DNA from: Ustilago trichophora | Taxonomy: Eukaryota; Basidiomycota; Ustilaginomycetes; Ustilaginales; Ustilaginaceae | DNA length: 64,000 nucleotides | Direction of reading: 5' to 3' | Assembly: GCA_900323505.1 (NCBI GenBank) | Contig: OOIN01000038.1 | Location: 372,001 to 436,000 of the forward strand | Shown: positions 3,001 through 40,290 of the stretch, in pieces | How positions within the stretch are numbered: position 1 is the stretch's first letter | Layout of the letters: the number at the start of each line of letters is the position of its first letter | Translations under genes and position numbers: made by a program | The notes under the pieces: generated by a model | What the model saw: the letters and a program-made list of their open reading frames with translations, nothing else | The model's database searches: none | Told to the model about the DNA's origin: nothing

Positions 3001-3379
3001 CGGCACGGAAACGACGCGATCGCTGCTGGTTCATCTTGGCACGGGGCGCGACACCATCGATGGCCATCATGAGGAGACGTCGTGGTCGGACCATGTTGAC
3101 GACGCGTTCTGTGTAGGCAAAGACCTCGACCATCATTTCCTCTTCGGTCTCGGGTGCGGGTTTGCCTTCTGGATGTGTACATGGATGTACGATACCGTTC
3201 ATATCTAGATAGAGACAGTCAAACTCTTCGCCATTGGGGTTGGGCGTCGAAGTGTCGAGCGGTAATGTGATCACGGTTCCGTCTGGACCGGGAGCGGTTT
3301 TGGGATCTTGCTCCTGCACCGAGGAGACGATGCGCGGGTACTTTTTGGAAAGCCATCGGAAAAGAGCGGGAACACCCAT
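1..3379 (-). CDS. RAT1: 5'-3' exoribonuclease 2 (Rat1/Xrn2), C-terminus cut by window edge
   Basis: Nuclear 5'-3' exoribonuclease of the XRN family; Rat1/Xrn2 trims rRNA and snoRNA and drives torpedo termination of RNA polymerase II. The frame is open from ATG 3379 to base 2 with no stop and no intron needed, giving about 1126 residues, so the protein continues outside the window. The N-terminus [15 protein letters not shown] is the XRN signature. Acidic catalytic segments [20 protein letters not shown] and [10 protein letters not shown] follow. A CCHC zinc knuckle (C272-x2-C275...C285, [14 protein letters not shown]) is typical of the Rat1/Xrn2 branch rather than Xrn1. An Asp run lies near residues 595-607 and the last 150 residues are Gly/Tyr/Asn-rich. 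It is divergent from VFA1 across a 680-bp spacer. The assignment is firm; only the extreme C-terminus is unseen. Confidence 0.95.
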
Positions 3380-4062
3380 GGTTGGTGTGTCTGTAGCTTA
3401 GCGCTGCCTTGTGGCTGGTTCAATGAGGGAGCGATAGAAAAAGAGTGTGTACGCTGCAGGGAGCGTGGGATAAAGAAAGTGGAGCTGCGGAACGTTGCTC
3501 AACGAACGAGTGAACCAACAAAGGTGGCTTTCGGTTGCGTTGCGGAAAAGTGGCTGTGGCACGGGCCTGTAGTGAAGCTGCTTTGGGGTTCAGTCGTTAT
3601 CAGACGAGTACGTGCGAGACTGAAACTCTATGTTTGGGATGTTGCCAATGCCTCCGTATTGCTGGCTAGCTGAGTGCTGAGTGGCAAATGCGGGATTGGG
3701 GGTGGGTTGATGGTAGTAGAGAAGAAGGCAGAGATGTTGTCAAGCTCAGTTTGATTAATTTGCCGATTCCGCCGCGCGACACTGCTCCATCGCCTCGATG
3801 TTCCAAAAGGATTTTGCAGAAATTCCGGATTTATGGCCACATTTTTTTTTTTCTTTTTTTTTCTTTTTTTTTTTTTTGTGCTGACGCGGGGGCCACATCG
3901 GTGAGCAATCGGGCAGCCGATCATGCTTCTGCATCCGACTGTTGCCTGTTCCCCACACGACACTTTGACGCCCACGTTGCCTCGACCTTTTTTGAGTTCC
4001 CACTTTGATATCTTGTCCCTTCAATCAACGTCGACATCCGCATCCAGCCGATTCTGTCCAAC
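3380..4062. promoter_or_regulatory. Divergent intergenic region RAT1 / VFA1
   Basis: This 683-bp spacer separates the RAT1 start (-) from the VFA1 start (+) and must hold both promoters. A T-rich tract with two C interruptions lies at 3842-3877, about 190 bp upstream of VFA1. Such poly(dA:dT) tracts often exclude nucleosomes in fungi (known in general; not shown here). No TATA box stands out. Short ORFs here are low-complexity shadows. Confidence 0.6.
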
Positions 4063-4722
4063 ATGGTCGTCGAAGGCAAACCATCAAACGTCTACATCCA
4101 TCGCCAAGCAGGTACACCAAAAGCCTGCTTTGTCTGCCACAAGCAATCGCCGCACGTCCTCGTCTCGCAGTCGATACCCACGCTCGACTTTCTCTACGTC
4201 TGTCATGCCCATTTGGCCGATCGTCATTTTGCAAACAAACTCTCCGATCCTAGCTCAACAGCAGCAACAACGGCTGCTGCTGGAGCAGCCGGTGAGAGGC
4301 TGCCGGACAAGGTGAGCCAAGCAGAGATCGACAAGATCAAAGCCGAGTACGAGACCAAGTTGAAAGCCAAAGAAAGTGCAAAGGACAAAGAGAAGGACAA
4401 GGACAAGGACAAGGACAAAGAGAGTAAGCCGTTCTCTGCTATGTCGGTTGCAGGGAGCGTATTCTCGACGGTGACATCGACAGTCTCAGGACTAGCGTCG
4501 ACGGCGATAAGTTCAATTCCGACCGAAGCAGCACACCCAGCAGCGGTGACACCGAGTCCAACATCAGCCGAAACACTGGCGAAAACGCATCCGCTCCATG
4601 CAAAATATGCACTGCATCGAGAGTTTTACGCTGCAAGAGTGAGGGAGTGGAACAACAAGATGGTCAGGAAGAAGGAGAAGGAACTCAATATGCCGCCTGC
4701 GCCGAGGAATGCATTGCCGTGA
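4063..4722 (+). CDS. VFA1: Vfa1-like VPS4-associated protein
   Basis: Single-exon protein of 219 aa. The N-terminus (residues 4-55) has a Cys/His module, CFVCHKQS...FYVCxAHLADRHF-like (C22-x2-C25 and C-x2-H near residue 48), as in the Vfa1 family, whose yeast member binds the ESCRT-III ATPase Vps4 at endosomes. Residues about 85-125 are a Lys/Glu/Asp-rich helix with a KD repeat encoded by an AAGGAC microsatellite at 4385-4425. The C-terminal 40 residues (HAKYALHREFYAARVREW...) form a basic amphipathic helix that in the family carries the Vps4-binding motif. The start is the first in-frame ATG, in the context CAACATGG. Family membership rests on recalled motifs; the middle is low complexity. 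Confidence 0.75.
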   Translation: MVVEGKPSNVYIHRQAGTPKACFVCHKQSPHVLVSQSIPTLDFLYVCHAHLADRHFANKLSDPSSTAATTAAAGAAGERLPDKVSQAEIDKIKAEYETKLKAKESAKDKEKDKDKDKDKESKPFSAMSVAGSVFSTVTSTVSGLASTAISSIPTEAAHPAAVTPSPTSAETLAKTHPLHAKYALHREFYAARVREWNNKMVRKKEKELNMPPAPRNALP

Positions 4723-5925
4723 TGTAAAATTGCTGCAATCATACCCACTGCTCTGTCTTCTTCAGTCTATCTACGTATGCTGCAACACAGCTTGCTCTCT
4801 GTGATGTTCTTGATCAACCAAGTCGTAAGGAACAAATGCAGTCGCAGAAGAGAATCGAGCCCATAGCGCAAATCATCATCATGCGGCATCAACTTCATCG
4901 CTTTCTACGCTGATTCCACCTTTGCTTGGCTATCGAGCATCGATGAGCTTCAAACAAGATGACAGCATCAGCTAAAGAGGCATGACATCCTGGCTGGATG
5001 CAAAGAGGTTCTGCTCGAGCAGTGTGCGGCAGTAACGTGATCGCATTCTAGACTTTGACCGTCTTTGCTCTGTACATGTCAAAACTTTGAAGAGTATAGG
5101 GTGACAGTGGTACCTCCTCGGCAAGGGTTCCGAATGAGTGATGTGTGGGATTAACATTGTCGCATTCTATACCGACGAAGCGGTTCCCGCAGAGCTAAGC
5201 TGGAGTGGGAACAGGCTGATCACAATTCACCCCAACGGCTCACTAGTACACCAGCATTTCAATCGACAATTCAGAAATGTGCTGCTACTACACTTTTCTA
5301 CACCATCGCATTCTTCGCTCGCCAGCACAAGCTACATCCTCCACCTCAGCCACAAAATCATTCATCTGACGAATGCACCCACCAAGCACGCCATCCATTC
5401 CCCGTCCCCACTCGAACCCCACACCGTCCCACACATCCCACAAGCTTCATAACGCCCCACCGTTACTGCACACATCACACATCGCACCATTGTTTTTTTT
5501 TTAACCAAACAAAGAATTGTCCTTTAAAAAGGCAGCGCAGCACGTCACTGCCAGCACACCTTTGAATCCAGGTGTGCCGACAGAGCTTGCGCACAACGAC
5601 AAAAACAAAAGTGAATGTGAGGAAAGGTGTCAAGCGAATGTATGTTTGGAACGAATTCAGCCAAAGAAAAAAAAAGTGACGCCCAAAACAGGAAAATGAA
5701 CAATGAAGAAGAGGAAACAGACAAGATGACCGAGCATGCAAATGAATGTGTGCAATGATGACGATGAGTGAGTGAGTGAAGGAGTTCCTCCGATGCAAAT
5801 GCCGATGAGAATGCGGATGCTAGAGTTTTGACATGCGCAGCAGTGTCAACTGGAACAATAGCGGCAAAGCATACTGTGTAGAAGGAAGTTCACTATGCGC
5901 GAGCAAGGGTGTTTTCCTTCCTCGT
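4723..5925. other. Gene-free 1.2-kb convergent spacer
   Basis: Spacer between the 3' ends of VFA1 (+) and the glycoprotein gene (-). It holds a T10 run at 5491-5500 and A-rich stretches. No ORF over 110 codons and no recognisable RNA gene was found. It presumably holds both 3' UTRs. Confidence 0.5.
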
Positions 5926-7171
5926 TTAGAGGAGGTAAGCGCCGGCAACGACGGCGGCGACAGAGGCGACGATGCCGAAGGCGGACGAGACGAGGGTGGA
6001 GGCTCCCGAAGTGCTGCCGCTGTTGGAGCCGCTGGAACCGTTGGAGCCCGAGGAGGAGCCGGAGCTGGAGCCAGAGCCCGAGGGGCGAGCAGCAGAACCG
6101 CTGCTGGAGCCAGTGGCACGCGAAGAAGAGGCAGCCGACGACGAAGAAGGGGCAACCGACGACGACGACGAAGGGACGATCGACTTGATACCGTTCGAGA
6201 TGGTGGCGGTGGTCTTGCAGTTCGAGGTGCTAGGGGTCGAGTAAGCGGCGGTGGGGGTGGTCTGGTCAGCGGCACCGTTGGTGTACGAGTAAGTGACGCC
6301 GTTGGCAACGTAGATGCCGGTGTAGAACTGGTGGAAGGTCGAAGTCTGTCCGTTGCCGTTGGGGTAGAGACCAGGGGGGTAGGCAGCGTCACCGTCGCAA
6401 GTCTCAAAGACGTTGTCGGCGTAGTTACCGGGCATGACAAAGTTGCATCCCATGACGTCGAGCTCGTGCTGGCACTCGAGAGCAGTGGGGGCCTGCTCGG
6501 AACCGGCAATGCAGATACGGAAGCAGAGCTGGTTGTAGGAAATGTAGTTCATCCACTCCTCGTAGAAGACATCCTCACCGGAAACGTTGGAGGTGACGTT
6601 ACCGCCGACGGGGTTACCCATGTTGGTGGCACCGTGAGGGTCGAGCTCACCACCCTCGTCACCGGCAACGAGACCGATCTTGGTAAAGTCACCAAGAGCC
6701 ATAAGCTGGACGTAGAGGGGAGTCTTGACGAAGTGGGCACCGGTAACAGTTCCATCGGGCTAGATAAAGCAGAATCAAGGACAACATCTCAAGTCAGGGA
6801 CGACGCTCAGGTGGATAATACCTTCGACGCTAAAAGAAAAAAGAAAAGAAACTTACGATGACACGGGCGTTGTTACGGGGCTTGGTACAGTAAGCGACAG
6901 TCTCGCCCTCGACGTTGCCGATGATGGTACCGGGGACCTCGGGACCGAAAGTGCACCAGTCGTCGATCGAGTTGAGGGAAGCAAGACGCGAGTTGGAAGT
7001 CTGGTTGATGGGGGTGTTGAGCTGAGGGGTGGAAGGGTTGGTGGGACCGTTCCTGTTGGTACCCCTAACACCGGGGTAGTTGGGGCTGGGAGTTCCGTAA
7101 CGGAAAGGAGGAGGCGACTGGGCGGAGACGCCAGCGGCGAGAGCGACAAGGAGAGCAGCAGCAGCCTTCAT
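5926..7171 (-). CDS. Secreted GPI-anchor-type glycoprotein, macrophage-activating-glycoprotein-like
   Basis: Two exons, 7171-6857 and 6759-5926, joined across a 97-nt intron (donor GTAAGT, acceptor CTAG), giving 382 aa in frame. Residues 1-18 (MKAAAALLVALAAGVSAQ) are a clear signal peptide. The ectodomain is rich in Cys, Gly, Asn and aromatic residues. Residues about 300-355 are a Ser/Gly mucin-like stalk. The C-terminus is hydrophobic (VASVAAVVAGAYLL), as expected for GPI-anchor addition. The overall pattern resembles basidiomycete proteins annotated as macrophage activating glycoprotein; that name is recalled, and the molecular role is unknown. The product is probably an abundant cell-wall or surface protein. 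Confidence 0.75.
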
Positions 7172-26987: not shown

Positions 26988-27219
26988 GGGCCTACTCCAT
27001 CCTCCTGCTACACTTCTTTTTACCTTTTATAAACATACAGTACATGTGTGGGCTAGACTAGAGTCACTCGTCTATCTTTATCTTCGATTCATAACTTATC
27101 GTCCTTTTGCAACCAGTTCATCGCATGCGATTCTTTTTTTTTTTTTTTCTCGCAAAATTGTCTGATTCGAAACGACGTTTGATGGGAAGAACCAGTCCAG
27201 GTCTGAACATGGAAAAGTA
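26988..27219. other. Glutaminase 3' flank up to transposon junction
   Basis: Short 3' flank holding CATACAGTACATG and a T-rich tract at about 27132-27149. It ends in AAAAGTA, where TA borders the GGGGGTTTC terminus of the transposon. Confidence 0.6.
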
Positions 27220-27271
27220 GGGGGTTTCAAATTTTTTCGAGTTTTTGAAAACTCGAGTTTTCAAAAACTCG
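27220..27271 (+). repeat. Left terminal inverted repeat with a perfect 34-bp palindrome
   Basis: Starts GGGGGTTTCAAAT. Bases 27238-27271 are a perfect palindrome centred on CTCGAG, with arms CGAGTTTTTGAAAACTC. It pairs with the inverse copy at 40225-40286. Confidence 0.85.
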
Positions 27272-27525
27272 CGTTTACTCAACTTTTGACGCCCCCATTT
27301 TTGTGCAACAAGTTTCAGTCTAGGAGACTCGAGTCTGGGCTTCACACGGCCGACTAGTCGTGATCCGAATTCCGAAATCCCGCACATATCAGACGTGAAA
27401 GCATGTCACAAAGACTCAATTGAAGACGGTGGTGGCCACAACACAAACATCTGTATATACAAAGATGGCAACGCTGAGGTAGCTTGAGTTATCAGGAACA
27501 ATGACACAGAAACCGTCACCGTCGA
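27272..27525. other. Transposon subterminal DNA left of the MCM4-derived stop
   Basis: Non-coding DNA between the left terminal repeat and the MCM4-derived stop codon. It contains the GACTCGAGTCTGGG block (27326-27339) shared with the right arm. It may also include some native MCM4 3' sequence. Confidence 0.5.
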
Positions 27526-28409
27526 CTAGTCATTGAGCGTTTTGGCGAAATCGACGTATCGAACAGCTTTGGTCGGGGCAGTCGACGAAGGGCCCGAAGG
27601 AGAGGTAGCCCTGCCAAAGCCGCTGCCCATCTTGTCGAGCAGTTGGAGGAGCTCGCGTCGCAGATCGCCAGCAAGTTTGCGCTGGTGGTACAATTGGCCT
27701 GTGTTGATGAGGTCCAGGTCAACAAGGCCAGTGCGCGGGTCGGTAGCTGAAGACTTGGCTGCTTTGCGGATCAGACGGGCTGCCTCCTCAACATCGTCCA
27801 CTACAACCTCGTCGGCGAAACGCATGTGAGCGTGTGCCTCGGACAGACGGATCATCGATTCGAGCTGTCTTGTCGTAGCAGTGATTCGGCCCTCGGCGCT
27901 GCGTGGGTCCTCACCGACTTTACGCAGCTCGATGTAGCGAGCAGCGAGAGCGTCACCGGCTTCCTTGGTGAGGACCGGCGAGATGCGGTTGCGTGCGTAA
28001 GAGATATAGGCGGTGAGTGTCTCGATGGGCAGAATGTCTTTGCCACTAGTGTCGGGCTTGTCTTCCAAGTAGAGGCTGACCAGGTGGCAAGCCAGACGGC
28101 GATCGTTGGCCTCGTCGATCTTGTCGAGCACCAGGTAGACCAGATCGAATCGACTGATGAGGGTAGGAGGAAGATCGATGTTCTTGGTGATGGGCAGGTT
28201 GACGTTGTAGCGCGAGCCTGTTGGGTTGGCAGCCGTGAGGATCAAGGCACGTGCATTGAGGGTGGTAATGATACCGGCCTTGGCGATGCTGAGCGTCTGC
28301 TGCTCCTTCACTTCGTGCAAGACACTGTGAGTTGCATCTCCACCAAAGCCGCTCTGCACATCGACATCCTCGTCGTCCTCCTCACCGCCGACACCGACAG
28401 CTTGCGCGC

Positions 28410-28664
28410 TGTGACGGTGAAATGAAGGTCGGATGAAGGTCAGCTCAAGTGCGAGCTCAAACAGATGGTAAGCTAAAGGTCAAAAGTTGTATGATCGGAA
28501 ACGATGATGGTAGTAAGTGAAAAAATTTGCTCAGTCGCGACGAGCTTGACCTGCGTGACGGCACGACGCGCGGACCACCTCTACGATCAGCTGATGATCG
28601 CCGGAGTTAAACCGGAGGTAAGCCGATGATCGGGCCAAACCTTGGTTTTCGGTGATCCGGGACA
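28410..28664 (-). repeat. 3' LTR
   Basis: 255 bp. It differs from the other LTR only at 28482 (A versus G) and 28488 (T versus C), both at CpG sites in the other copy. Confidence 0.95.
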
Positions 28665-28842
28665 TTGGGCCCAACAGAGACAAGCTTCGTCCCGAAGCTG
28701 GCAAGTAAGATCGACATACAAAGAAAGAGTGGAACCGTGAACAAACAAACAACATAATGCGATGGTTGAACATCGTGGAGGGAGGGTACCGAGTCGGGGG
28801 GAGTCATATGCCTGTGTTGAACAGACAGTCATTGTCGTGTCT

Positions 28843-29943
28843 TTAGTAGACGAGGTTAACTTCAGCAAGTCGAAGCTCATCCTCTGCAACTAGCACCGAG
28901 GAGACAATCTCGTCTGGATCTTGCCTGGTAGGAATGTCGTCAGCTGAAGTCGGCGGCATTGGGTCGATATCCGTGGACGGCCAGTACTTCTTGAGTCGAT
29001 CCAAATGCACTCGTTCTTCTGCTCCATCAACCAAACTCCGGATGATGTACGACTTCCTCTGCTTCTTCATCACGACGTATGGTCCCATCCACTTAGGTGC
29101 GAGTTTAGCCTGTGTGGAGTATGTGGATTCATATACCGTCTGATGTCGAAGTACTAAGTCGCCAATCTCGATGGGCGTACCAAGTCGTCTGGGCCTTGAC
29201 TTCTCGGTTCGCTTTGCTTGTGCTGCTTCATAGGTGGACAGAGCATCAACCCGTCGTGTGTCGATGAAGGCTCGTTGCAAGTGCACTTCATTTGTAGTCG
29301 GACTTTCAACCCTCGAACTCTCTCGATCTTTGAGGACATAACCAAAGAGCAGTTCGGTAGGAGAAAGGTTGGATAAGTCGGGGATGGGTCGAGTGTTGAG
29401 CTCGCGGATGACTGCAGATAGCTGGTCCAACCAAGGAAATCGAGTAGAGGAAGCAGACGTAGCGCTAGCACAGAGCTTTCGAAGGCCTTGGATAATCAGA
29501 CCATTGTTGCGTTCGACCAATCCGTTAACCCACGGTGCATAAGCTGGAGTGATGTGATGGCCGACGTCGTTGTCATCGAGGAAGTCATATACCTCGGCGC
29601 AATCAAAGTGGCTTCCACCATCCGAGATGATGGTCTTAGGAAGTACAGCCAAATGATCGCGAAGAGTAGTAAGACAACGCACTACATCTTGACCGCGTGC
29701 TTGTGCGAGAGGGAAAGCCCATAGGAACCTAGAGAAATAGTCGACGATAACGAGCAACTTACTCTTGCCATGAGAGGTCGGCAAAGAGACAAAGTCCATT
29801 GCCCAGGTCTCCATGGGCGACGAGACAATGATGGGATCGAGAACAGATCGGTTGCGCAGTCCATAGAGCTGGCACGTCTTACACGTCTTGACTACTTGTC
29901 GTGCATCTGAGTACAATCGAGGCCAGTTGACGTTTTGCTGAAG
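28843..29943 (-). CDS. pol, integrase part (downstream of an in-frame TGA)
   Basis: Same frame as the upstream pol segment, separated from it only by TGA at 29944-29946. It begins in the zinc-binding region (CKTCQLYG; the His partners HELAHMG lie upstream of the TGA). The DDE catalytic core follows (WAMDFVSL, IISDGGSHF, NGLVERNNGL), then a GPY/F module (KWMGPYVVMKK). It ends in an acidic tail without a chromodomain. The enzyme inserts retroelement cDNA in the nucleus. Alone it has no good start codon, so it is made only as part of the polyprotein if the TGA is read through, or it is dead in this copy. Confidence 0.88.
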   Translation of the reverse strand, partial: LQQNVNWPRLYSDARQVVKTCKTCQLYGLRNRSVLDPIIVSSPMETWAMDFVSLPTSHGKSKLLVIVDYFSRFLWAFPLAQARGQDVVRCLTTLRDHLAVLPKTIISDGGSHFDCAEVYDFLDDNDVGHHITPAYAPWVNGLVERNNGLIIQGLRKLCASATSASSTRFPWLDQLSAVIRELNTRPIPDLSNLSPTELLFGYVLKDRESSRVESPTTNEVHLQRAFIDTRRVDALSTYEAAQAKRTEKSRPRRLGTPIEIGDLVLRHQTVYESTYSTQAKLAPKWMGPYVVMKKQRKSYIIRSLVDGAEERVHLDRLKKYWPSTDIDPMPPTSADDIPTRQDPDEIVSSVLVAEDELRLAEVNLVY

Positions 29944-32900
29944 TCAAACCTTGCTGACCAGCATGTTGACGCCCATATGTGCGAGTTCGTGGGCCTTAAC
30001 TAGCCGATCGTAACCTTCCTTGCGCGGTATGGCATCCAATATTTTGTCGTCCTGAACGTAACTGAGCTTGCCGTCGATCAACTTGTACCTCCTCATTCGC
30101 TTGACCTTGTCTCGCTGTGCCGTTGTCGATGGCATCTCGAGCAAGAGTAAAAAGCGGATTACCGGCTCCAACTCGTCTCCTTCGAATCTTTTGAGCAAAG
30201 GTCCAGCCTCTTCGTCGACGGTAAGGTAGCGTTCGGCTAGGCGTTGCGCCGACTCTGGCAGGTCGAAAGCGAGAGGAGAGAGGTCGGAGGATCCGGCAGG
30301 TTGGACGTCGGACAGGACAAGATTAAGATCGCAGGCTAACAAGTCACGATCATCGGGAAGGACATTCTCGTGTGCATCATCGACCTCATCGTCTGTATAG
30401 GGTCGATGAGAAAGGCCATGAGCAAGACCATGGCGTCGACCAGCACAGTGCTCGACCTTGATGATGTTATGAGCAAGGAGTTGTTCACGCCATCGAGCAT
30501 GTGCAGCCGGCATCTTATCACTTCGAAGGATGTCTCGTAGCGCCATACAGTCGGTCACTAGAATGATCGGTTGGCCAAAGGTAAACGGAGCAAATCGAGT
30601 GAGCGCAAATTTGGCGGCGACGAGCTCTCCGAGATGGGCTGAATACCTTGACTCGGATGGCGAGCACTTCTTCGAAGCGTATGCGATAGGGAAGACTACT
30701 TGACGTTGGTGAGACTTGTCGGGTGAGCTTGGCTGTGGGTCGGAGATCAAGAACCATTGGCCATCGGAGCCTTTCTGCATCGTATGTTCCTGCAGCAGGA
30801 CAGCTCCTATGCCTTCGGCGCTCCAATCGGACTGGACTACAAAAGGTCGATCGTATCGTGGCTCCTTGAGCACACGAGCGTTAACCAAAGCATTCTTGAC
30901 CCGTAAGAAAGCATCGTTGTACTCCTTGGTCCAACGTTTGTCGAGCTTGGCATCATAGTTGTCGACATTAGTCGTGAGGGTGTCGAGTGGTGCAAAGACT
31001 TTGGCGAAATTTGGAACTTTGGAACGAAGATATGAGCATACTCCTCGGAAAACCATGATGTCTCGGACTGTCTTTGGGACCGGCCAATTGAGGATTGCTT
31101 TAAGTCGAGCCGGGTCTGCCCGTATACCGTCCTTGCCTACAAGCTGTCCACAGAAGGTTATGTTCTCGTGCATGAACTGACACTTCTGAACAGAGAGGGT
31201 GAAACCGGTGTCGATGGCTCGGTCAAGGAAAGTTCGCAACCAAAGGAAGTAGGCGTCAAAATCTTGATGGCCTGTCGCAACGTCATCCATCCAAAAGTCG
31301 GAGTCTCTGTCGAAGATGTCTCCAAAGGCGGTAGTGATGAAGCGATAGTACAAGGTTGGGCCAACTTTAAACCCAAAAGGCATCACAGTGTACCCGACGA
31401 AACCAAAATCTTCCACATATGTTACTGAGAGAAGCGTCGCAAGCCGAGAGTTGGCCATGATGAAGAACCCGGCGCATCCATCACCTTTGAAAAGAAACTG
31501 TTTTCCGGATAACTTGGTTGCCTTGACCTCGATGTCTCCAGGAATAAACGAGGTATCTTTCATATAGCTGTTGATGGGCGCATAGTTATGCACGAGTCGA
31601 TAACGCGACTCTGCAGCTTTGGTCGTGGTCGTATCAATGGTCGATGGTGCCGGCGGTGGCAAAGACTTGTCGTACTCGAGGCCTGCTGCCTTGAGCGCGG
31701 CATTGGCTTGGAGTCGGAGTTCGTCCAAAGAAACATTCGAGTCGATCTCTGAGGTCGGCTTAGGTACGATCCTTGTCTCTGAAACCCATAGTACTTCGTC
31801 GGGTGGGACCTTGACCATAAAACCGTGATCCATAAGTTCTCGAATCTTTGCGTGTAGGAACTCTTTCTGTGGTGGAGATAGAGCTTGGATACCAGACCGC
31901 TTCTTCGTCACGGGTGGTGGCCGGGTCAGGATAGGATCGCAGATAACCATGCGGTTTTGCTTGCATTCGGCGGTCGACTCAGCAAAGGCGAGATGCTTGG
32001 CTCGAAGAAGGTCGATGAGGTGTCGGCGTTGTGCTCCAGTACCGACGTTACCGAAACGAGCGACTAGAGCTTGAACTACGCGTTCTGCGCGCTCTTTGGA
32101 ATCATCATCAGCTTTACCACTGACTCTGTACGGTCGGAACGTTTGTCGAATGCGACTACGACGGTCAATATAGGAAGGATCATTATCAACGACAGGGAGC
32201 CGATGTTGGAGCTTCTCAAGTTCATGTTGCTCAACCGGAATGTCGAAGTGAACTGAGTGTGCCGAACGAGTGGTCATATCAACGAACTCTTCCAGGTCGG
32301 GCACTAAGTCGATATGGTCATCACAAGTATCTTCGATCTCTTGCGTCAAGTCCTCGTCGTATATGTTGAGGGACGCGACATCAGAGATTGTGGATTCGTT
32401 GCACAAGATTTCGAGCTCTGCCACGTTAGCATAAGGATGCCTGGCAATTAGCAGTCGGACAGCTTCCATAGGTGTCTCGGGGAAGTATTGTCCCGATCCG
32501 TGTAAGTACTTTGGAATGATCCTCGACCAATGTCGAAAGACTGAGCTGCGATCATTTTGCGGAAGGAACATGACATCGAGCTCATAGAAATGAAGAGCGC
32601 CAGCCTTGACCTTCCATGGTCGACCGAGGAGCAATCTTTCCGCTGACGATGGCATTACTTCGAACTCGACTTCGACTGGTACCGTATATTTCAAGTCGAT
32701 GTCTTGTACCGAGGCATGTACCTTAACCCTGCCGTGTGATTGTACCGCTTGTCCATTAGCCATCCTGAGATAGATGTCAGTTGGCACAAGCTCCAAGTCA
32801 AGCGAAGCGGCCATAGAAGCTGACATAACGTTGACCATTGCACCTTCGTCGAGACCCGCGAGAGCTTCACAAGTCAACTCCTCGTCAGTTGGATGATGAA

Positions 32901-33930
32901 GTTGAACCTGCAGCGAAAAGAAATGGCTACGATGTTGGTAGGCTCGATCTCGCAATGAACGAAGATCCACTTTAGGCCGCTTGGTTCGGCCTCGAGTGGC
33001 AGGAGTCGACTTAGGGGAGGGCACAGAGGGCTTAGACAAGGGGAAAGCAGGTGGCGGCGGTGTCATTGGTGACGGGGAGCGAGCAATTTGACCAACTTTG
33101 GCTTCTGCAGCCGACTCAGATGAAGTCGATTCAGTATTTACAATGGCAGTCGTGGTCGTAGATGTCGCAGATACCGACGATGTAAGCAATTCCTTCGATG
33201 CGATCGATGTCTCGTGTATCTTTGATCGCATCGCGTCGGATTGATTGTCACCAATGAAGTCACCTTTGCCAGATGAAGGGAAGGGGGAACGAGTCGGAAG
33301 AACGGAACTTGTCTGCAGAAACGAAACGGGAACGGTCGAATCGGAACGGAAACTGTCGGAACGAGAACATTGCACATCGAGCAAAGTGCTCTTGCCTCTC
33401 ACATCGTCAGCCAAGGTACAACCTCCTTCTTGATCCGTTGGTAGAGAAACCCTCCCTTCTGCGATGGAAGGGGGCATGGTTCCCTTTGCGGTGCCAGCAC
33501 CTGCCAAAGGAGGAACACCTTTGCGGGCAGATACCGTGGGAGAAGAAGGTTGTTCTTGACGAACGTGAGAGGTGGGCGAAGAGTCACTTACCTCGAAGGC
33601 TACCTGTGCCGGCTTACAGAGCTCGGTCGTGCAACGAGTTGAGAGGACGGGGTCAGGCTGGTCAAATACGAAATGGCTGCCACACGACTTGGGAGAAGGG
33701 TTAGATGAAGGAAGGAGAGTCTGCGTCGACTCGAGGGTATGATTAAGATTGTCCGTAGTGCAGGTGTAGTGCGACGCAGTGATGAGACCCGTAGTAGCAT
33801 CAACGGCCGAGCGAGGAGGGTCTCCAAGGTTCGCCGGCCTTAGATGTTTCCCTGTCCCTGCAGAGCTCTCGCATAAGCCCTGCGATAGTTTTGCTCGAGC
33901 TGAGGGACAGGACGATCGGAAGTACAGTTG
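29944..33930 (-). CDS. pol, protease-reverse transcriptase-RNase H part
   Basis: Open from about 33930, overlapping the end of gag by about 90 nt in the -1 frame, down to TGA 29946-29944; expression as a gag-pol fusion by frameshift is likely. The retropepsin-like segment has LDEGA (Asp codon at 32848-32850) where most have D-S/T-G, followed by LLLGRPW. RT motifs are FLFKGDGCAGFF, MPFGFKVGP and FWMDDVATG (31282-31293), with Trp where YxDD normally has Tyr. RNase H shows VVQSDWSAEGIGAVL, HLGELVAAKFAL and LVTDCMALRDIL with its acidic residues. The last residues HELAHMGVNM begin the integrase zinc finger, which is then cut by TGA. These substitutions may be normal for this lineage. Confidence 0.9.
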   Translation of the reverse strand, partial: QLYFRSSCPSARAKLSQGLCESSAGTGKHLRPANLGDPPRSAVDATTGLITASHYTCTTDNLNHTLESTQTLLPSSNPSPKSCGSHFVFDQPDPVLSTRCTTELCKPAQVAFEVSDSSPTSHVRQEQPSSPTVSARKGVPPLAGAGTAKGTMPPSIAEGRVSLPTDQEGGCTLADDVRGKSTLLDVQCSRSDSFRSDSTVPVSFLQTSSVLPTRSPFPSSGKGDFIGDNQSDAMRSKIHETSIASKELLTSSVSATSTTTTAIVNTESTSSESAAEAKVGQIARSPSPMTPPPPAFPLSKPSVPSPKSTPATRGRTKRPKVDLRSLRDRAYQHRSHFFSLQVQLHHPTDEELTCEALAGLDEGAMVNVMSASMAASLDLELVPTDIYLRMANGQAVQSHGRVKVHASVQDIDLKYTVPVEVEFEVMPSSAERLLLGRPWKVKAGALHFYELDVMFLPQNDRSSVFRHWSRIIPKYLHGSGQYFPETPMEAVRLLIARHPYANVAELEILCNESTISDVASLNIYDEDLTQEIEDTCDDHIDLVPDLEEFVDMTTRSAHSVHFDIPVEQHELEKLQHRLPVVDNDPSYIDRRSRIRQTFRPYRVSGKADDDSKERAERVVQALVARFGNVGTGAQRRHLIDLLRAKHLAFAESTAECKQNRMVICDPILTRPPPVTKKRSGIQALSPPQKEFLHAKIRELMDHGFMVKVPPDEVLWVSETRIVPKPTSEIDSNVSLDELRLQANAALKAAGLEYDKSLPPPAPSTIDTTTTKAAESRYRLVHNYAPINSYMKDTSFIPGDIEVKATKLSGKQFLFKGDGCAGFFIMANSRLATLLSVTYVEDFGFVGYTVMPFGFKVGPTLYYRFITTAFGDIFDRDSDFWMDDVATGHQDFDAYFLWLRTFLDRAIDTGFTLSVQKCQFMHENITFCGQLVGKDGIRADPARLKAILNWPVPKTVRDIMVFRGVCSYLRSKVPNFAKVFAPLDTLTTNVDNYDAKLDKRWTKEYNDAFLRVKNALVNARVLKEPRYDRPFVVQSDWSAEGIGAVLLQEHTMQKGSDGQWFLISDPQPSSPDKSHQRQVVFPIAYASKKCSPSESRYSAHLGELVAAKFALTRFAPFTFGQPIILVTDCMALRDILRSDKMPAAHARWREQLLAHNIIKVEHCAGRRHGLAHGLSHRPYTDDEVDDAHENVLPDDRDLLACDLNLVLSDVQPAGSSDLSPLAFDLPESAQRLAERYLTVDEEAGPLLKRFEGDELEPVIRFLLLLEMPSTTAQRDKVKRMRRYKLIDGKLSYVQDDKILDAIPRKEGYDRLVKAHELAHMGVNMLVSKV

Positions 33931-35204
33931 CTATAGATGTGACCCTTGTGGCCGCAACGGTGACATTCACCAGTACCTGGCTTCTCGGTGCCAGGAGTAA
34001 TTGGATAAGCCCACCAAGCCGGAGGGGAGATGTTGACACGCGAGTGCTCTTGATGATATTTCTTGAGAGCCTCCTCGTATTGCCGATGGCCCTCCTCATC
34101 GTCGGTGAAACTGTATTGAGGAATCTTGGAGACATCGGTCGAAGGAGCTCTAGGGCGGGGAAGAATCGAAGTACCATTTGGAGTATCGAATCGAGCCCTT
34201 TTCTCTTCAGGAGGCGAGGGGGGAAGAGCATTCTGGCGGCGAAGATTGTTGAGGAGTCGGATAAGCTCAGCCTGACTGGCATCGTATCGCGAAGTGAGTC
34301 GACTTTCCAAATCTTTTTCGCGCTTAAGTGCTGCATCATGCTCAGCAATGATCTCATCGTAGACCGTAATTGGAAGACTTCGACAAGCATTAACCGCGTT
34401 GAGGACCGTGGATGGTTGAGGTCCAAGATGAGTCTTGAGTTCAGATGGCAGTGAAGCCCAGAAGTCGGCGGTCTTGAGCTCCTCAGGTGCATAACGAGTG
34501 TCAACTTTGTTAGATAGAATGAGCACGTCGCTCAGCCATTTGCGCCAAGCATCACCATCGCGAAGATCCTCGACAGTCTTCTTGTTACGAACGGCGGCGA
34601 GGTAGAGCTGATAACGAGAGGCCGGTGTCTCCTCAGGTTGAGAGAGTCCGGCGTACTGGGCGAGAAAAGCGGTCTTGAGAGAGTCGTAGTTGGTACGGAC
34701 ATCCTCGGGCAGAGTTGCGAACCAATCCTCCGCTGCACCGATGAGGAAGGTCTCAAAGTAGGTGACCTTTCGAGCCAAAGTTGAGTCGATGTTGGAAATT
34801 AGACAGTATCTTTCGAAGCGCTTGAGCCATACCTTAGCGTCGACGCCAGCGGCATCGCCACTGAATTCGGGAGGACTCATAGGCAGAGCTGTGCCAGTAA
34901 GATAAGTCGGGGAGGCGGACATGCTGAGCAAGGCAAATCTTTTGGTGATTGTCGGGATAGGCGAAGAGCTGGGAAGTGGCTTGTCGGAAGACGGTGGTGG
35001 TGATGAGAGCGGGGACGAGCTACCAAAAGGGTCTGGCTTGAGTGGCTGCGTTGAGCCAGAGGGTCGAGAGAAAATAGGATCCGACGTATTGACCGATCTT
35101 GCGAGCAATCGTCCAGCCAGCTTTCGCGTATGCAAGACAATCGCAGATAACCAGCCCAACGGAATCCCAAATGAAAGCTTGAAAAGACCGTGTCGAGGTC
35201 TCAA
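33840..35204 (-). CDS. gag capsid/nucleocapsid protein
   Basis: ORF of 454 aa. The likely real start is ATG 34922 (MSASPTYL), because the first 94 residues are Ser/Pro low complexity; the longer ORF is reported. The capsid-like region contains PPEFSGDAAGVDAKVWLKRF and a conserved LPEDVRTNYDSLKTAFLAQY-type helix, as in gypsy gag proteins. The C-terminus carries one CCHC zinc knuckle (CHRCGHKGHIYSNC), the RNA-binding nucleocapsid motif. The stop TAA (33840-33842) lies one codon after a candidate slippery heptamer at 33846-33852. Confidence 0.88.
   Translation of the reverse strand: MRPRHGLFKLSFGIPLGWLSAIVLHTRKLAGRLLARSVNTSDPIFSRPSGSTQPLKPDPFGSSSPLSSPPPSSDKPLPSSSPIPTITKRFALLSMSASPTYLTGTALPMSPPEFSGDAAGVDAKVWLKRFERYCLISNIDSTLARKVTYFETFLIGAAEDWFATLPEDVRTNYDSLKTAFLAQYAGLSQPEETPASRYQLYLAAVRNKKTVEDLRDGDAWRKWLSDVLILSNKVDTRYAPEELKTADFWASLPSELKTHLGPQPSTVLNAVNACRSLPITVYDEIIAEHDAALKREKDLESRLTSRYDASQAELIRLLNNLRRQNALPPSPPEEKRARFDTPNGTSILPRPRAPSTDVSKIPQYSFTDDEEGHRQYEEALKKYHQEHSRVNISPPAWWAYPITPGTEKPGTGECHRCGHKGHIYSNCTSDRPVPQLEQNYRRAYARALQGQGNI
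33846..33852 (-). promoter_or_regulatory. Candidate -1 ribosomal frameshift site (G GGA AAC)
   Basis: In gag frame the heptamer reads G-GGA-AAC, which fits X-XXY-YYZ. It is followed by ATC and the gag stop TAA. Slipping by -1 enters the open pol frame. A downstream RNA structure was not examined. Confidence 0.6.
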
Positions 35205-35501
35205 AACGGCCTAGAAACGACTCCAATGCGGCCAAAAAGCGCGAAAGATGCGCAAGATCAAGACTTTTGGAAGCGGATGGAATTGGTTGAGAAAGCGTGG
35301 GAAAGGAATGTAATGAGTCGAAGTGATGTCGAAGATGGAGGAAGTGTCGAAAAAGGTTTGGTCGAAAGTTGATGAAGGTCGGTAGCAGACCTCAATGAGA
35401 CTTTGATCTTAGGAGCGATCGCAGTCGTCAAATTGGTCTGTAATGAAGTCGATAGAGTTGCTGAAGCAGAGAATGTTGGAGATGTCGACAAAGAACACCG
35501 A

Positions 35502-35519
35502 TTCCGGGTTGGCCCCCCA
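35502..35519 (-). other. Putative tRNA primer-binding site
   Basis: It starts two bases inside the 5' LTR with TGGGGGGCCAACCCGGAA on the minus strand. This would pair with a tRNA 3' end of the form ...TTCCGGGTTGGCCCCCCA. The tRNA identity was not determined. Confidence 0.6.
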
Positions 35520-35521
35520 AA

Positions 35522-35776
35522 TGTGACGGTGAAATGAAGGTCGGATGAAGGTCAGCTCAAGTGCGAGCTCAAACAGATGGTAAGCTAAAGGTCGAAAGTC
35601 GTATGATCGGAAACGATGATGGTAGTAAGTGAAAAAATTTGCTCAGTCGCGACGAGCTTGACCTGCGTGACGGCACGACGCGCGGACCACCTCTACGATC
35701 AGCTGATGATCGCCGGAGTTAAACCGGAGGTAAGCCGATGATCGGGCCAAACCTTGGTTTTCGGTGATCCGGGACA
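35522..35776 (-). repeat. 5' LTR
   Basis: 255 bp, TGT...ACA when read on the minus strand. It is followed at 35777-35780 by the GCGC target duplication. Confidence 0.95.
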
Positions 35777-36441
35777 GCGCCAGGGCCGGCAGCTTGCTCG
35801 GAAGCGTCTCGAGTAGAGAGATCAACGCCGAGCCTCTTGGCGTTGGTGCGCTTGATGTGAAGGATGTCAACGAATGTCTTGTAGAGACTCTTGAGACTAC
35901 GCTGTTGAGGGTTGACGCGGACAGGTGTGCTTCGGAAGATACCGGTGATCTCGATGCGGTCACCAGGCTTGCTGACGTCGACCAATTCGTCGTAGGCGCA
36001 CATGCTTACGGTGTGAGGGGTCTGACCATCAGGAACGACGTCGGGAGTCTCCTGAATGCGAACGACCTGGCGATCCGAGAACTCGCATCGGTTGTGGATG
36101 AGCGACATGGGAGTCCTCCTCAGCAATGATGGCGAGGAGAGGGCAACCGAGGAGTGCCGACGGTGACGATGTAGGAAAGTGAAGTGGTGATGAAGCTGCG
36201 AGATGGATGAAAGATAGAAATTGTCAGAAACTTCGAAGGTAGCAAAACATTCTTGAGCCGGAATAAAACTTACCTTTAAGTGAACTGTGTGGTTCCCTCG
36301 AGCTAGAGGCCTGGCTCTTGAGGGGACTGCTTGAGGGTTAGGCGAGTGGCGACGAGGCTCCTGCTGCGTTTCGATTCGAAAGGGATGCTGGGGCGAGAGG
36401 AGTGCGCTGTTGGGCAAGGCGCTTCTCGTCGCCACTGCATC

Positions 36442-37989
36442 CTATTGCGCGTCCTGAGACTGTGACTGTTGAGCCTGCTGTGACCTTTGAGCTCTTCGTG
36501 CCTTGTTGCGTCGAGCGACACGTCCCTGTTCCGATTCAAGTCCAGCCTCTGTCCTGCCTCTTCGCCTAGAGGCCGCGGTTGTATCTTCGAATCGGCGAGA
36601 ATAAGATGTGAACAAAGCGGTAACCATTTCCTCTCGAAGAGCGTGAGCAGCATCAGCCCTAAAGGTGGCAAGCTGCCGTTGAGACATGCCTTCCGTCGCA
36701 CGTGCCAGTTCCTGTTCATAACGAACTTGGTTCTCTCGACGGTGTACCCTTGCACCTTCCGTAGCTTGCTGGTAAGAGCTGAGTTCGGCTGTGACATCTT
36801 GGACAACTTCAGGGGAATACGTTTCCAACAGATATTCGGCTACATCGTCGGGTCTGTCGTAACGGCTGGCGAATGTGTGGGCAATGATGCATGCTTGAAT
36901 GGCGTACGCCGCCTTTTGGTGGTCCTCCTCTCGATATAGGTTTCCTCGATAACCCATTAGGCACTGAAAGCGATTCTTGAGGTAGGCGATTCCATGCTCT
37001 GCTCGAACGCGGATGCGAGACATGCTGAAGTTGAAGAACCTGATGTCGCGGCTCTGGTTAGCGAAAGTATTTCCATATGGACTGACAGAATAGCTTGAGT
37101 ACCCGAATCCAGAATCCACCCAGACAAACTCGCCTTCGTCCAGATGCAGACGAGGTTTGGCTACGATGCCCTGGCCAGACGCCCAGACACGCGAGTCATG
37201 AGAAGAACCAGGATGGCCAACGACTGACTCCACAATGCGAAGAGAATGAGGAAGAAAGACAAGAGCGACGTTGAAAGTGTAGTCACCTTTGTACGAGTAG
37301 TGCTCTCGAGCATTCATTGCAGGTTTCCACGCGAGGTTGATGTGTGTGCCGTCTGCAACAAGCCATCCGCGACCCCATTCTTCCACGCCAGATTTTTCCT
37401 TAACCCAGGCGGAGGCCTTGGCGCGTTCATCTTCGGTAGCAAAGGTGACTACCTCGGTGTTGATCTCGTAAAGTGCCTTGATTGTCTTCTCAGTCCAAAG
37501 ATGGACGGAACCCCATGAGCACCCGCAAGCAAAGGCAGCATCACGAACGCCTCCGCCATTTCCCGATCGACCTAGGCAGTACAACCCGACCGCAATCTGC
37601 ATTTGAACCCTCCTGTAATTCCTGGTGTTCTTGAAGACATCCGTTGAGCTGAGTCGTAGTGTGAGGTCCTCAAATGCCTGCGGTGTCATGCAAACTAGGC
37701 CGCGGTAGAGCTTATGGTTGTATTCGGAGTAGTGGTCAAGTCGATCCAGAATAGTGTCCTTGCGGCAAGACAAGAGGTGACGTTCCACAGAGTATCGGTC
37801 GCTTAAGACAGCTAAGTACATAATGGCAAGTGCACGTGCGAAATCATACTCGTAGTCGTTGTCGTAGCTGTCACTGCAGTTGTTGTCTATAGCCAATTCT
37901 GAATTCAACAAGGTTTCGAAAAGGATCGAATGCTGAATCGCTGTTTGTAGTTGATTGAGGAGTTCCTGCTTGGAGGAGACCCGAACCAT
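36442..37989 (-). CDS. PIF/Harbinger DDE transposase
   Basis: Intact single-exon protein of 515 aa. It has the DDE_Tnp_4 (HARBI1-like) core: D213 in VADGTHINLAW, D292 in WVDSGFGYSSY and E331 in RVRAEHGIAYLKNRF, with the supporting motifs GDYTFNVAL, GHPGSSHDSRVW and YCLGRSGNGGGVRDAA. The C-terminal 80 residues are Arg/Gln-rich. Such transposases cut at terminal inverted repeats and need a separate Myb/SANT-like partner, whose gene lies 343 bp upstream on the same strand. Because the reading frame and catalytic triad are intact, the element may have been active until recently (inference). The stop is 6 bp from the ATG of the MCM4-derived frame. Confidence 0.93.
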   Translation of the reverse strand: MVRVSSKQELLNQLQTAIQHSILFETLLNSELAIDNNCSDSYDNDYEYDFARALAIMYLAVLSDRYSVERHLLSCRKDTILDRLDHYSEYNHKLYRGLVCMTPQAFEDLTLRLSSTDVFKNTRNYRRVQMQIAVGLYCLGRSGNGGGVRDAAFACGCSWGSVHLWTEKTIKALYEINTEVVTFATEDERAKASAWVKEKSGVEEWGRGWLVADGTHINLAWKPAMNAREHYSYKGDYTFNVALVFLPHSLRIVESVVGHPGSSHDSRVWASGQGIVAKPRLHLDEGEFVWVDSGFGYSSYSVSPYGNTFANQSRDIRFFNFSMSRIRVRAEHGIAYLKNRFQCLMGYRGNLYREEDHQKAAYAIQACIIAHTFASRYDRPDDVAEYLLETYSPEVVQDVTAELSSYQQATEGARVHRRENQVRYEQELARATEGMSQRQLATFRADAAHALREEMVTALFTSYSRRFEDTTAASRRRGRTEAGLESEQGRVARRNKARRAQRSQQAQQSQSQDAQ

Positions 37990-38332
37990 GGCTGTATGTG
38001 ATGTTGTCGAAGGTGGTGGTGTTGGTGTTGGTGTTGGTGTTTGACGGAAGGAAGGAGGAAAGAGTTGTGAGAAAGCAAGTCAAAAACTGCGCAGTAAAGA
38101 CCAAAAGTGCGCAGCTCACGCGTTCTCGGAATTCGGATATGCGCACACACCCAACCATTTGGAGACAAGGTTGATCGCAATCATGTACAGACGATGACAG
38201 ATGGTTGAATTGAATGATGATGCGACGATCACTACAAGTTACAATGGTACAGGAGAGCGAGGAAGGAAGTACCGAGCCACACCGATTGAAGAGACGTCGC
38301 TCGTTTGTGAGTGGCTGGGCCAAGCCACAAGA

Positions 38333-39889
38333 CTAAGGAACGCGCTCGTTGAAGGTCTCGGCGCCCTGTTCATGGAGTGATTCATCCAAGCCACCAATCA
38401 TGCTGTTGAGGCTCATGTTGTTCATGTTGTTGTGATCGGTGGCTGCAGAAGGACGAGCGTATCCAAGGACACTGAGCATGAAGTGATGATCCCTAACTCT
38501 CATCCGCTCCATCCTTTCATGCTCCTTTTCCTGGTACTTGAGTCGCATTTCCTCTCGCTTTGTGAGCTGTTCCTCTCGCTTTGTGAGCTCTTCCTCGCGC
38601 TTTGTGCGCTCTTCCTCCACCTTGACTTGTGTCTCTACTTGGCCTTCGATGAAGATGCGCATGAGGTCAGAGATATCGTCGCGCTTCCCCCCCCTTGCTT
38701 GAGAAGTCGATCGAAACCTGGGAATCGCATCCGAGGTTACCGAGTCACGAGCCGATCTGTTGTTGAGATCTTCTTCACCGTCAGCACCAAATGCAGAGCT
38801 GGCATTACGGCGGACGGTGTCGTTGACGGGTAAAGGGGTGCTGATGGAGGTGGTAGAAGCGTGGCTGGACAAGGCATTGTTGCGAAGAGGGGATGCATGC
38901 GTGTTCGGGTGCGACAAAGAGGAAGCAAGGACCCGACCTGAGAATGGGTCCTCGGAAGAAGATTCGGCAATTGCATCCAATGAAGGAATGCGACGGTCTC
39001 CAGGAAAGATGTCGTCATCGTCCTTGTCCATGTCATGTACATCGGATTCAGAAGTGCTGGGGGCAGGCGTAGTGGCGGGGGCAGGCGTAGTGGCGGGGGC
39101 AGGCGTAGTGGCGGGGGCAGGCGTAGAGTCGTAAGGCGTGCTGGTGAGCAAGACCACAGGACCGGTCTCGGGGCGATTGATTGCCATCTTGTGCCACCGC
39201 TCAAACCAAGGGTAGGTCTTAGTGATCGCGGCACGGTTGGTAAAGTCCTAAAGCAGAGAGGTCAAGGAAGGAAAGGTAGTTCGTCAGTTCCATGTAACCC
39301 AATGTAATCATACCATACCAAGACAAAGTGTCGGCGTACTCACCAAGTGGTTGGATTGCATGTTGCGAAAAAGAAGACCAGATCCTGTTTGCGACAACGA
39401 AGCTCTGATCTTCTTGTACTTTTCTTCTAACCCGCGAAGCTTGGCTTTAATACGATCGCCACAGTTTGCGACGTCTTTGTTGGGGAACACCAGCTTGAAT
39501 ACTTCTCGACAAGTGACGACTTTGTTCGTTTTATGTCCCTTTTCTTGGGCGTTGCTGACTCGACCTCGTAGTAAAGCGATCTGGAATCTTGGTGAGTTGT
39601 ATATAACGTCCACGAGACGCTCGGTTTCCTCGTCCGTCCAGTTGAAGTACGTTCCACCTCTGGTAAACCGGGACGATGAGGCGCTTGGGACCGATGAGAC
39701 TGAGCGAGTAGCGCGGGCAGGAAGTGTACGGCGATACGAAGATGCTTGTTGCTGCGTGCGAGAATTGGAAGCGGCGGTTGTAGGATGAGAAGATGATGGC
39801 TGGCGAGAAACATCGGATGAGGAGCCTGTGGACTCGCCTCCCGCGCTGGGCAGAGGAAGCCTGAGCGCAGGAAGCGCTGAATTGTCCAT
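38333..39889 (-). CDS. Myb/SANT-like DNA-binding partner of the Harbinger transposase
   Basis: Two exons, 39889-39344 and 39247-38333, join in phase 0 across a 96-nt intron (GTGAGT...TTTAG), giving 486 aa. ATG 39889 (MDNSALPAL) was chosen; an in-frame ATG at 39985 would add 32 residues. Exon 1 carries a Myb/SANT-like trihelix (YFNWTDEETERLVDVIYNSP ... CGDRIKAKLRGLEEKYKK). Exon 2 starts with the conserved KTYPWFERWHKM patch. It has a Pro/Ala/Thr repeat from an 18-bp minisatellite, then a long charged coiled coil (TKREEELTKREEQLTKREE). It probably binds transposon ends and helps the transposase enter the nucleus, as known for PIF/Harbinger ORF1 proteins. Confidence 0.85.
39055..39127. repeat. 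18-bp coding minisatellite
   Basis: About four near-identical GGGGCAGGCGTAGTGGCG units inside the SANT-protein gene, encoding TTPAPA repeats. Its length is a multiple of three per unit, so copy changes keep frame. Confidence 0.85.
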
Positions 39890-40224
39890 GTTTTTGCTGG
39901 CAGAGATTGTTGTCAAAGAAGTGTTTTCGCAGCCAAGAGATAAGCTCTGGCTCTCGCCATCGTGGGAATGAAGATAGTTCTCCATTCCGACAAGGCGCGG
40001 AAATGTTGGAGACGATGGTTGACAGAAGAGAGCGAAAAGGTACAAGTTGAGCAGGTCTTTGCGGAGTGCGCAGTTAGAAGGCGTGGAAGTCGGGATACGT
40101 TACGTGGCTTTGTAGACCCGACCCAGACCCAGACTCGATGGTCGCACCACACTCGAAATAGGCGAATGTTTGAAAACTCGATTTTTTTCGAGTTTGGCTG
40201 AGCTTACATAAGCAATTGCAGACT

Positions 40225-40286
40225 CGAGTTTTTGAAAACTCGAAAAAAACTCGAGTTTTCAAAAACTCGAAAAATTTGAAACCCCC
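40225..40286 (-). repeat. Right terminal inverted repeat
   Basis: Inverse copy of 27220-27271, ending TTTGAAACCCCC at 40286. Its palindrome arms are interrupted by an A-rich spacer of about 9 nt (40243-40251). A further CGAGTTT/AAAACTCG pair lies just inside at about 40169-40196. Confidence 0.85.
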
Positions 40287-40290
40287 TAGT

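Follow-up and report, generated by a model that had tools for sequence, protein, structure and literature searches.

We analyzed a window of 64,000 nucleotides from the genome of the smut fungus Ustilago trichophora (contig C37:372001-436000 of an assembly of 38.8 Mb in 45 contigs). At 27219-40287, the window contains an autonomous-looking PHIS/Harbinger DNA transposon carrying a piece of the host gene MCM4, and a gypsy retroelement lies inside that piece. The MCM4 piece is cargo of the DNA transposon and not a bystander. We consider it likely that this transposon family (family A) captured part of the host MCM4 as DNA behind its transposase gene and spread with it, and that the gypsy element landed later in the cargo of the window copy.

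The MCM4 piece as cargo of family A

Eight full-length copies of family A were found in the assembly: the window copy and L009–L015. The stretch comprising the element end and MCM4 repeats full-length at eight places, the window included, with 99–100% identity, and the stretch between the transposase and the nearer end is MCM4-derived in all eight full copies. Because it recurs in eight copies, each with its own 3-bp duplication (AGT in the window; ATT, ACA, ACT, AAT, AGT, AAT, and ACA in L009–L015, respectively), the MCM4 piece is cargo. An earlier note on this DNA had inferred as much and had proposed a search for copies with the same ends; all eight copies recovered share the MCM4 segment, and none ends near 36.3 kb, a position at which an end would have spoken against cargo. 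It is extremely improbable that the fragment lies inside or beside the transposon by chance, as a bystander or as another mobile piece: repeat searches gave this no support, and the reading was rejected by the position of the fragment between the same ends in 8/8 full copies with separate duplications.

The homeologous locus on C39, which served as a stand-in for a sister species, has neither the transposon nor the MCM4 fragment, and the joined window flanks align to it without a gap across the join. The features of the window copy, apart from the gypsy element, are as follows (window coordinates; identities are to native MCM4, on contig C8 where stated):

27216..27218, target-site duplication AGT, low-coordinate side
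27219..27261, + strand, terminal inverted repeat, MCM4 side, starting AGGGGGTTTC
27262..27510, subterminal region from the MCM4 cargo to the terminal repeat (the cargo match starts at 27511)
27511..28409, − strand, MCM4 cargo as far as the gypsy insertion, with the AAA+ half that follows Walker B, the lid, and 76 bp of the part before; 95.5% and 98.7% (C8)
35777..36110, − strand, MCM4 cargo: OB-fold part (most of segment 3), starting with the gypsy duplication GCGC; 99.1% (C8)
36107..36156, − strand, MCM4 cargo: 50-bp exon-2 piece (segment 2); 96%
36154..36428, − strand, MCM4 cargo, segment 1: exon 1 lacking its start codon, then predicted intron 1 and the first part of exon 2; 86.6%
36442..37989, − strand, transposase of 515 amino acids (aa), DDE (presumed triad D213, D292, E331), DDE_Tnp_4 profile match
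38333..39187, − strand, second open frame, function unassigned, also in family B
39308..40045, − strand, Myb/SANT-like partner frame, weak match (PF13837, E 0.007)
40246..40287, − strand, terminal inverted repeat, partner side
40288..40290, target-site duplication AGT, high-coordinate side

The inverted ends reported in the earlier note were recovered as 41-nt arms with 90% complementarity. Its limits (27220..40286) fall one base short of the element at each end. The TA flanks it described did not hold: reading the ends as AGGGGG...CCCCCT leaves identical 3-bp flanks in 8/8 full-length family-A copies, which rules out a 2-bp TA duplication. Terminal inverted repeats with a 3-bp duplication were present in all 12 elements of which both ends were read (8 of family A and 2 each of families B and C, described below); the duplication was of the ANT type in eight, the exceptions being ACA, ACA, AGA, and TGT.

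The DDE transposase claimed earlier was confirmed by a match to Pfam DDE_Tnp_4 (E 7e-19), and its 515-aa frame is uninterrupted in 8/8 full copies. It also matches the U. trichophora protein UTRI_10164. A DDE transposase of Harbinger type, as expected of a PHIS/Harbinger element, is thus present; its triad was placed by motif. The Myb/SANT partner is present as a frame, but its match to PF13837 is weak and under the Pfam cut-off both in the window and in family-B copy L020 (E 0.0015). The transposon, MCM4 and gypsy frames all lie on the − strand, as had been stated.

In addition to the full copies, the genome contains a decayed copy on C38 (L016, C38:10500-20400). A truncated family-A copy (L021, C17:1-3518) is cut inside the transposase, near the contig start. 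Altogether, 21 transposase matches were obtained in the genome, of which L039 and L040 were assigned to no family and L041 is a truncated family-A element.

The loci examined occur twice: the window flanks on C37/C39 (91 and 80%), MCM4 on C8/C5, and SAR1 on C41/C40. Another U. trichophora strain, NBRC 100157, is listed at 20.7 Mb in PMC8951962. Because the loci are doubled and the assembly is about twice that size, it looks like two diverged parental genomes, of a hybrid (allodiploid) or two-nucleus strain.

Anatomy, origin, and evolution of the cargo

In the coordinates of the C8 gene (the reverse complement of L017), the gypsy-free copy L011 carries 2089-2365, 2530-2579, 3407-3812, and 4261-5088 (segments 1–4): exon 1 minus the start codon (2057), the predicted intron, an exon-2 sliver, the OB part, and the lid together with the AAA+ half that follows Walker B. 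The MCM4-derived frame of the earlier note was corroborated by Pfam matches to MCM, MCM_lid, and MCM_OB in this copy, which cover positions 136–224 of 224 of the MCM P-loop domain, the lid, and 63–125 of 126 of the OB domain. Family-A cargo thus lacks the P-loop and has internal deletions, and its present stop arose by a C-to-T change. The 920-aa exon-2 frame is intact in both native genes, on C8 and C5. No annotated cargo protein of family A was found among the 120 listed of 2249 proteins of MCM4-piece length (8000 candidates scored; top identity 71%).

Because a predicted 80-bp MCM4 intron (C8 2244-2323; C5 equivalent 2551-2629) is retained inside segment 1, we conclude that the MCM4 piece came from DNA. 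Intron-free cargo, which characterizes transcript-mediated transduplication as described for hAT-H3, was accordingly not what was found. The donor and acceptor letters of the intron are still present in L011, and its cargo could still be spliced.

The decayed copy L016 holds 3214-5087 of the gene save for a small out-of-frame deletion, and the undeleted helicase core is still present. Since this stretch is kept and the cargo joins the element end at the same point as in family A, L016 is a relative predating the large cargo deletions. Of its 148 differences from C8, 127 are C-to-T or G-to-A, and 111 of these 127 are at CpG. Changes concentrated at CpG, as expected of methylation-linked repeat decay, were seen at L016 1940-4067.

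The gypsy element at 28410-35776 lies within cargo segment 3 and is composed of the following:

28406..28409, target duplication GCGC, left copy
28410..28664, − strand, long terminal repeat (LTR), 2/255 differences to the other LTR
28843..29916, − strand, integrase open reading frame (ORF; rve), separate from the reverse transcriptase (RT) ORF
29944..33507, − strand, protease-RT-RNaseH ORF
33840..35204, − strand, gag ORF (Retrotrans_gag E 0.00045, below the Pfam cut-off)
35522..35776, − strand, LTR

Paired LTRs, a target duplication, RT, and integrase, by which a gypsy element is recognized, were all found, and its position inside the MCM4 frame agrees with the earlier note: the 255-bp LTRs differ at two bases and GCGC stands at both flanks. 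The insertion is absent from all seven other full family-A copies, which measure 5697–5824 bp; the gypsy element entered after the MCM4 capture, in the window copy.

Cargo segments diverged unequally from the native genes. No site of 406 in segment 3 is fixed in family A against both C8 and C5, versus 25/822 in segment 4 (p = 4e-5); segment 1 has 22/275. Segment 3 differs from C8 by 0.5–1.2% in 6/7 gypsy-free copies and by 3.2% in L009. In the latter, a cluster of copy-unique changes, some of them not transitions, was observed in segment 3 (C8 gene ~3750–3795). Judged from these differences, segment 3 looks freshly recopied from native MCM4; the contrast could be accounted for either by conversion from the C8 gene in recent times or by a second, later capture.

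On the family-A branch, segment 4 accumulated 14 nonsynonymous changes (one a stop) and 7 synonymous ones, which is not different from the site expectation (p = 0.45). The codon count gave 15 nonsynonymous (among them one stop) and 8 synonymous, 23 changed codons in all, of which two at a join were removed by hand; the site-based count was 25 of 822. The ratio of nonsynonymous to synonymous divergence (Ka/Ks) between the native homeologs is 0.006 in this segment. Family-A cargo as a constrained gene is therefore unsupported in segment 4; it appears to evolve nearly neutrally, and for this reason we read it as passenger DNA.

Sister families and the cargo slot

Family B has two copies (C16, C44), with a transposase 87% identical to that of family A. 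Its cargo consists of MCM4 positions 1899-2638 and 3403-3470 (C8 numbering), begins 158 bp upstream of the start codon, and stops after ~22 codons of the OB part. A spliced origin of the deletion in B, the ends of which are readable as a GT...AG intron, was rejected: the predicted real intron is kept and the deletion in A does not fit. In one family-B copy, the cargo contains an insert of ~0.95 kb (L020 ~5441-6388); its end resembles by eye the left-border sequence of L033, and it is probably another small transposon.

The 5' stretch of the family-B cargo is 2.4–2.7% different from C5 and 16% from C8, and family-A segment 4 is 4.0–4.8% different from C8 and 9.1–9.7% from C5. In a tree of the 389 columns common to A and B, the split {A, C8}|{B, C5} had a support of 100/100, the bootstrap being not fully settled; a tree uniting A and B cargo, a group chosen after the distances were known, was rejected (78 lnL worse, p-AU 1.9e-44). 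These comparisons indicate that the family-B piece derives from the other MCM4 homeolog, of the C5 type. Between A and B, the transposases have a synonymous divergence (Ks) of ~0.5 and a Ka/Ks of 0.15 (two pairs; Ka/Ks computed without L015, though its frame is open). Because this Ks exceeds that of the MCM4 homeologs (0.28–0.31), the two lineages were probably already separate when each took its MCM4 piece.

Family C (two copies, C2 and C28; 4213 bp; duplications AGA and TGT) carries a piece of SAR1 in two parts, one of 50 bp that lies upstream of the start codon in the native gene and one of 349 bp taken from the last exon. The 349-bp part is 98% identical to C41, versus 94% to C40. The 965 bp missing between the two parts include the start codon and the P-loop. 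Family D (three copies) ends ~240 bp past the transposase stop, with no space for a comparable piece, and the single copy L037 likewise appears cargo-free. Family E (two copies, L038 and C20) has a 101-aa frame behind the transposase (L038 3435-3737 = C1:2542453-2542755; C20:710300-710599; 95% identical), for which neither DNA nor protein comparison within the genome gave a native source and no Pfam family matched at E 0.01; a further capture or an element gene is possible. Among six families with a readable right end, three thus have a host piece of known donor, two have none, and one (E) is ambiguous. Behind the transposase of L039, a stretch of ~0.9 kb (2545-3456; C6:874223 onward) is repeated at at least 20 other places in the genome, with no visible link to cargo.

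The position of the cargo is shared by families A, B, and C: it starts 13, 19, and 19 bp after the transposase stop, respectively, ends ~290–320 bp before the element end, and runs in the transposase sense. The joins are readable with 1–3 bp of shared sequence, by eye, which could be chance.

Under the explanation we favor, families A and B would have taken MCM4 independently. The route may have been faulty gap repair: after excision, the host gene would have been copied to refill the break. The slot would lie directly after the stop codon since an insertion at that point leaves the transposase, the subterminal region, and the right end of ~290–320 bp intact. Homology between cargo and donor would permit later recopying, so that one segment looks refreshed, and the cargo protein would be a passenger.

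Several points weigh against this explanation. Gap repair was not observed, and taking the same gene twice is unlikely under random capture. The right endpoints of one deletion lie 4 bp apart in A and B (3407, 3403), a closeness more in keeping with shared ancestry than with independence. The rates of segments 1 and 4 are unequal (p = 0.001), and rate variation may feed the segment-3 contrast. Pairwise Ka/Ks of segment 4 to C8 is 0.43–0.60, below 1. The coding-to-coding deletions in undecayed copies are in frame in 3/3 cases (twice in A, once in B; ~1 in 27 by chance), unlike the small one in the decayed L016, and segments 3 and 4 are open to the present stop in 8/8 copies (in the window only partly).

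A single MCM4 capture in the common ancestor of A and B, followed by gene conversion from the resident MCM4 in each host lineage, is an unlikely alternative that nevertheless deserves weight. It would account for the same gene, orientation, and slot in both families and for the similar deletions (2579|3407 and 2638|3403), and segment 3 suggests that recopying does happen. However, the stretch common to A and B tracks the respective host homeolog, which would require that conversion replaced it completely in both families; the cargo endpoints differ on both sides (2089-5088 in A, 1899-3470 in B, C8 gene coordinates); and L016 retains 3214-3406, which a shared deletion would have removed.

We give a rather small chance to a broader reading, in which this smut Harbinger lineage keeps a permanent cargo dock after the transposase stop, into which parts of essential host genes are loaded again and again and where homology to the donor lets the resident gene keep rewriting them. 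The taking of MCM4 from both homeologs would then be a non-random choice, the P-loop-less piece or shared identity favoring the element against licensing control or silencing. Slightly more doubtful still is that the cargo is kept because it is useful, a P-loop-less MCM4 disturbing replication licensing or homology to an essential gene discouraging silencing. The same essential gene in two sibling families, the in-frame deletions, the absence of the P-loop from the captured MCM4 of A as well as from the captured SAR1 of C, and the changes at CpG in the decayed copy (111/127), by which element copies can evidently be attacked, would suit this idea; the neutral fit of segment 4 where the native homeologs are at 0.006, the SAR1 piece without its native start codon, and the early end of the family-B piece speak against it.

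Significance and comparison with known systems

Several stages of capture can be compared within this one genome. Some relatives carry no cargo; one copy has a large capture with the core undeleted; other copies were deleted and amplified; a sister family holds the same gene, of the other homeolog; a third family has a different gene in that slot; and there are signs of recopying. The long-standing question of how cut-and-paste transposons acquire host genes, and whether the choice is random, thereby becomes testable by comparison and in laboratory yeast.

Fungal transposons are known to capture housekeeping genes, and Harbingers of rusts to carry cargo. The earlier note had called a replication-helicase fragment in a smut Harbinger new to its author; this is partly right, as DNA transposons of fungi, relatives of Harbinger among them, have been published with host-gene cargo. 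Among the literature matches listed (titles and abstract starts), we found neither a capture of MCM4 or SAR1 by a transposon nor sibling families that drew one gene from two homeologs, nor a shared slot.

As described in PMC4482050, the Pangu group of the PHIS superfamily resembles our elements in ends starting with AG and a DDE transposase with another frame; of its 5'-ANT-3' duplications, 8/12 elements here show the like and 4/12 do not. The smut elements differ in their cargo and in a weak Myb/SANT match, no such motif having been found in Pangu according to that paper. The TET/JBP-carrying PHISTA elements of rust fungi are likewise Harbinger-related basidiomycete transposons with an extra gene; according to PMC12730594, they have dioxygenase cargo and 2-bp TA duplications, whereas the smut element has truncated pieces of essential genes and 3-bp duplications. 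Pack-TYPE elements of plants are also cut-and-paste transposons with parts of host genes enclosed by their ends but are, according to PMC8903248, non-autonomous, unlike family A with an open transposase in every full copy.

A further parallel is the fungal hAT transposon with captured histone H3, reported in PMC6710886 from Pseudocercospora and relatives and separately from Pyrenophora, the latter capture being treated there as an independent event. In both cases, a fungal cut-and-paste transposon amplifies a housekeeping gene. The hAT-H3 system is described there as a transcript capture, with hundreds of RIP-inactivated copies in Mycosphaerellaceae; the smut element, in contrast, is of Harbinger type, has DNA-level cargo with an intron and few copies, and belongs to sibling families that use two homeologs and a shared slot.

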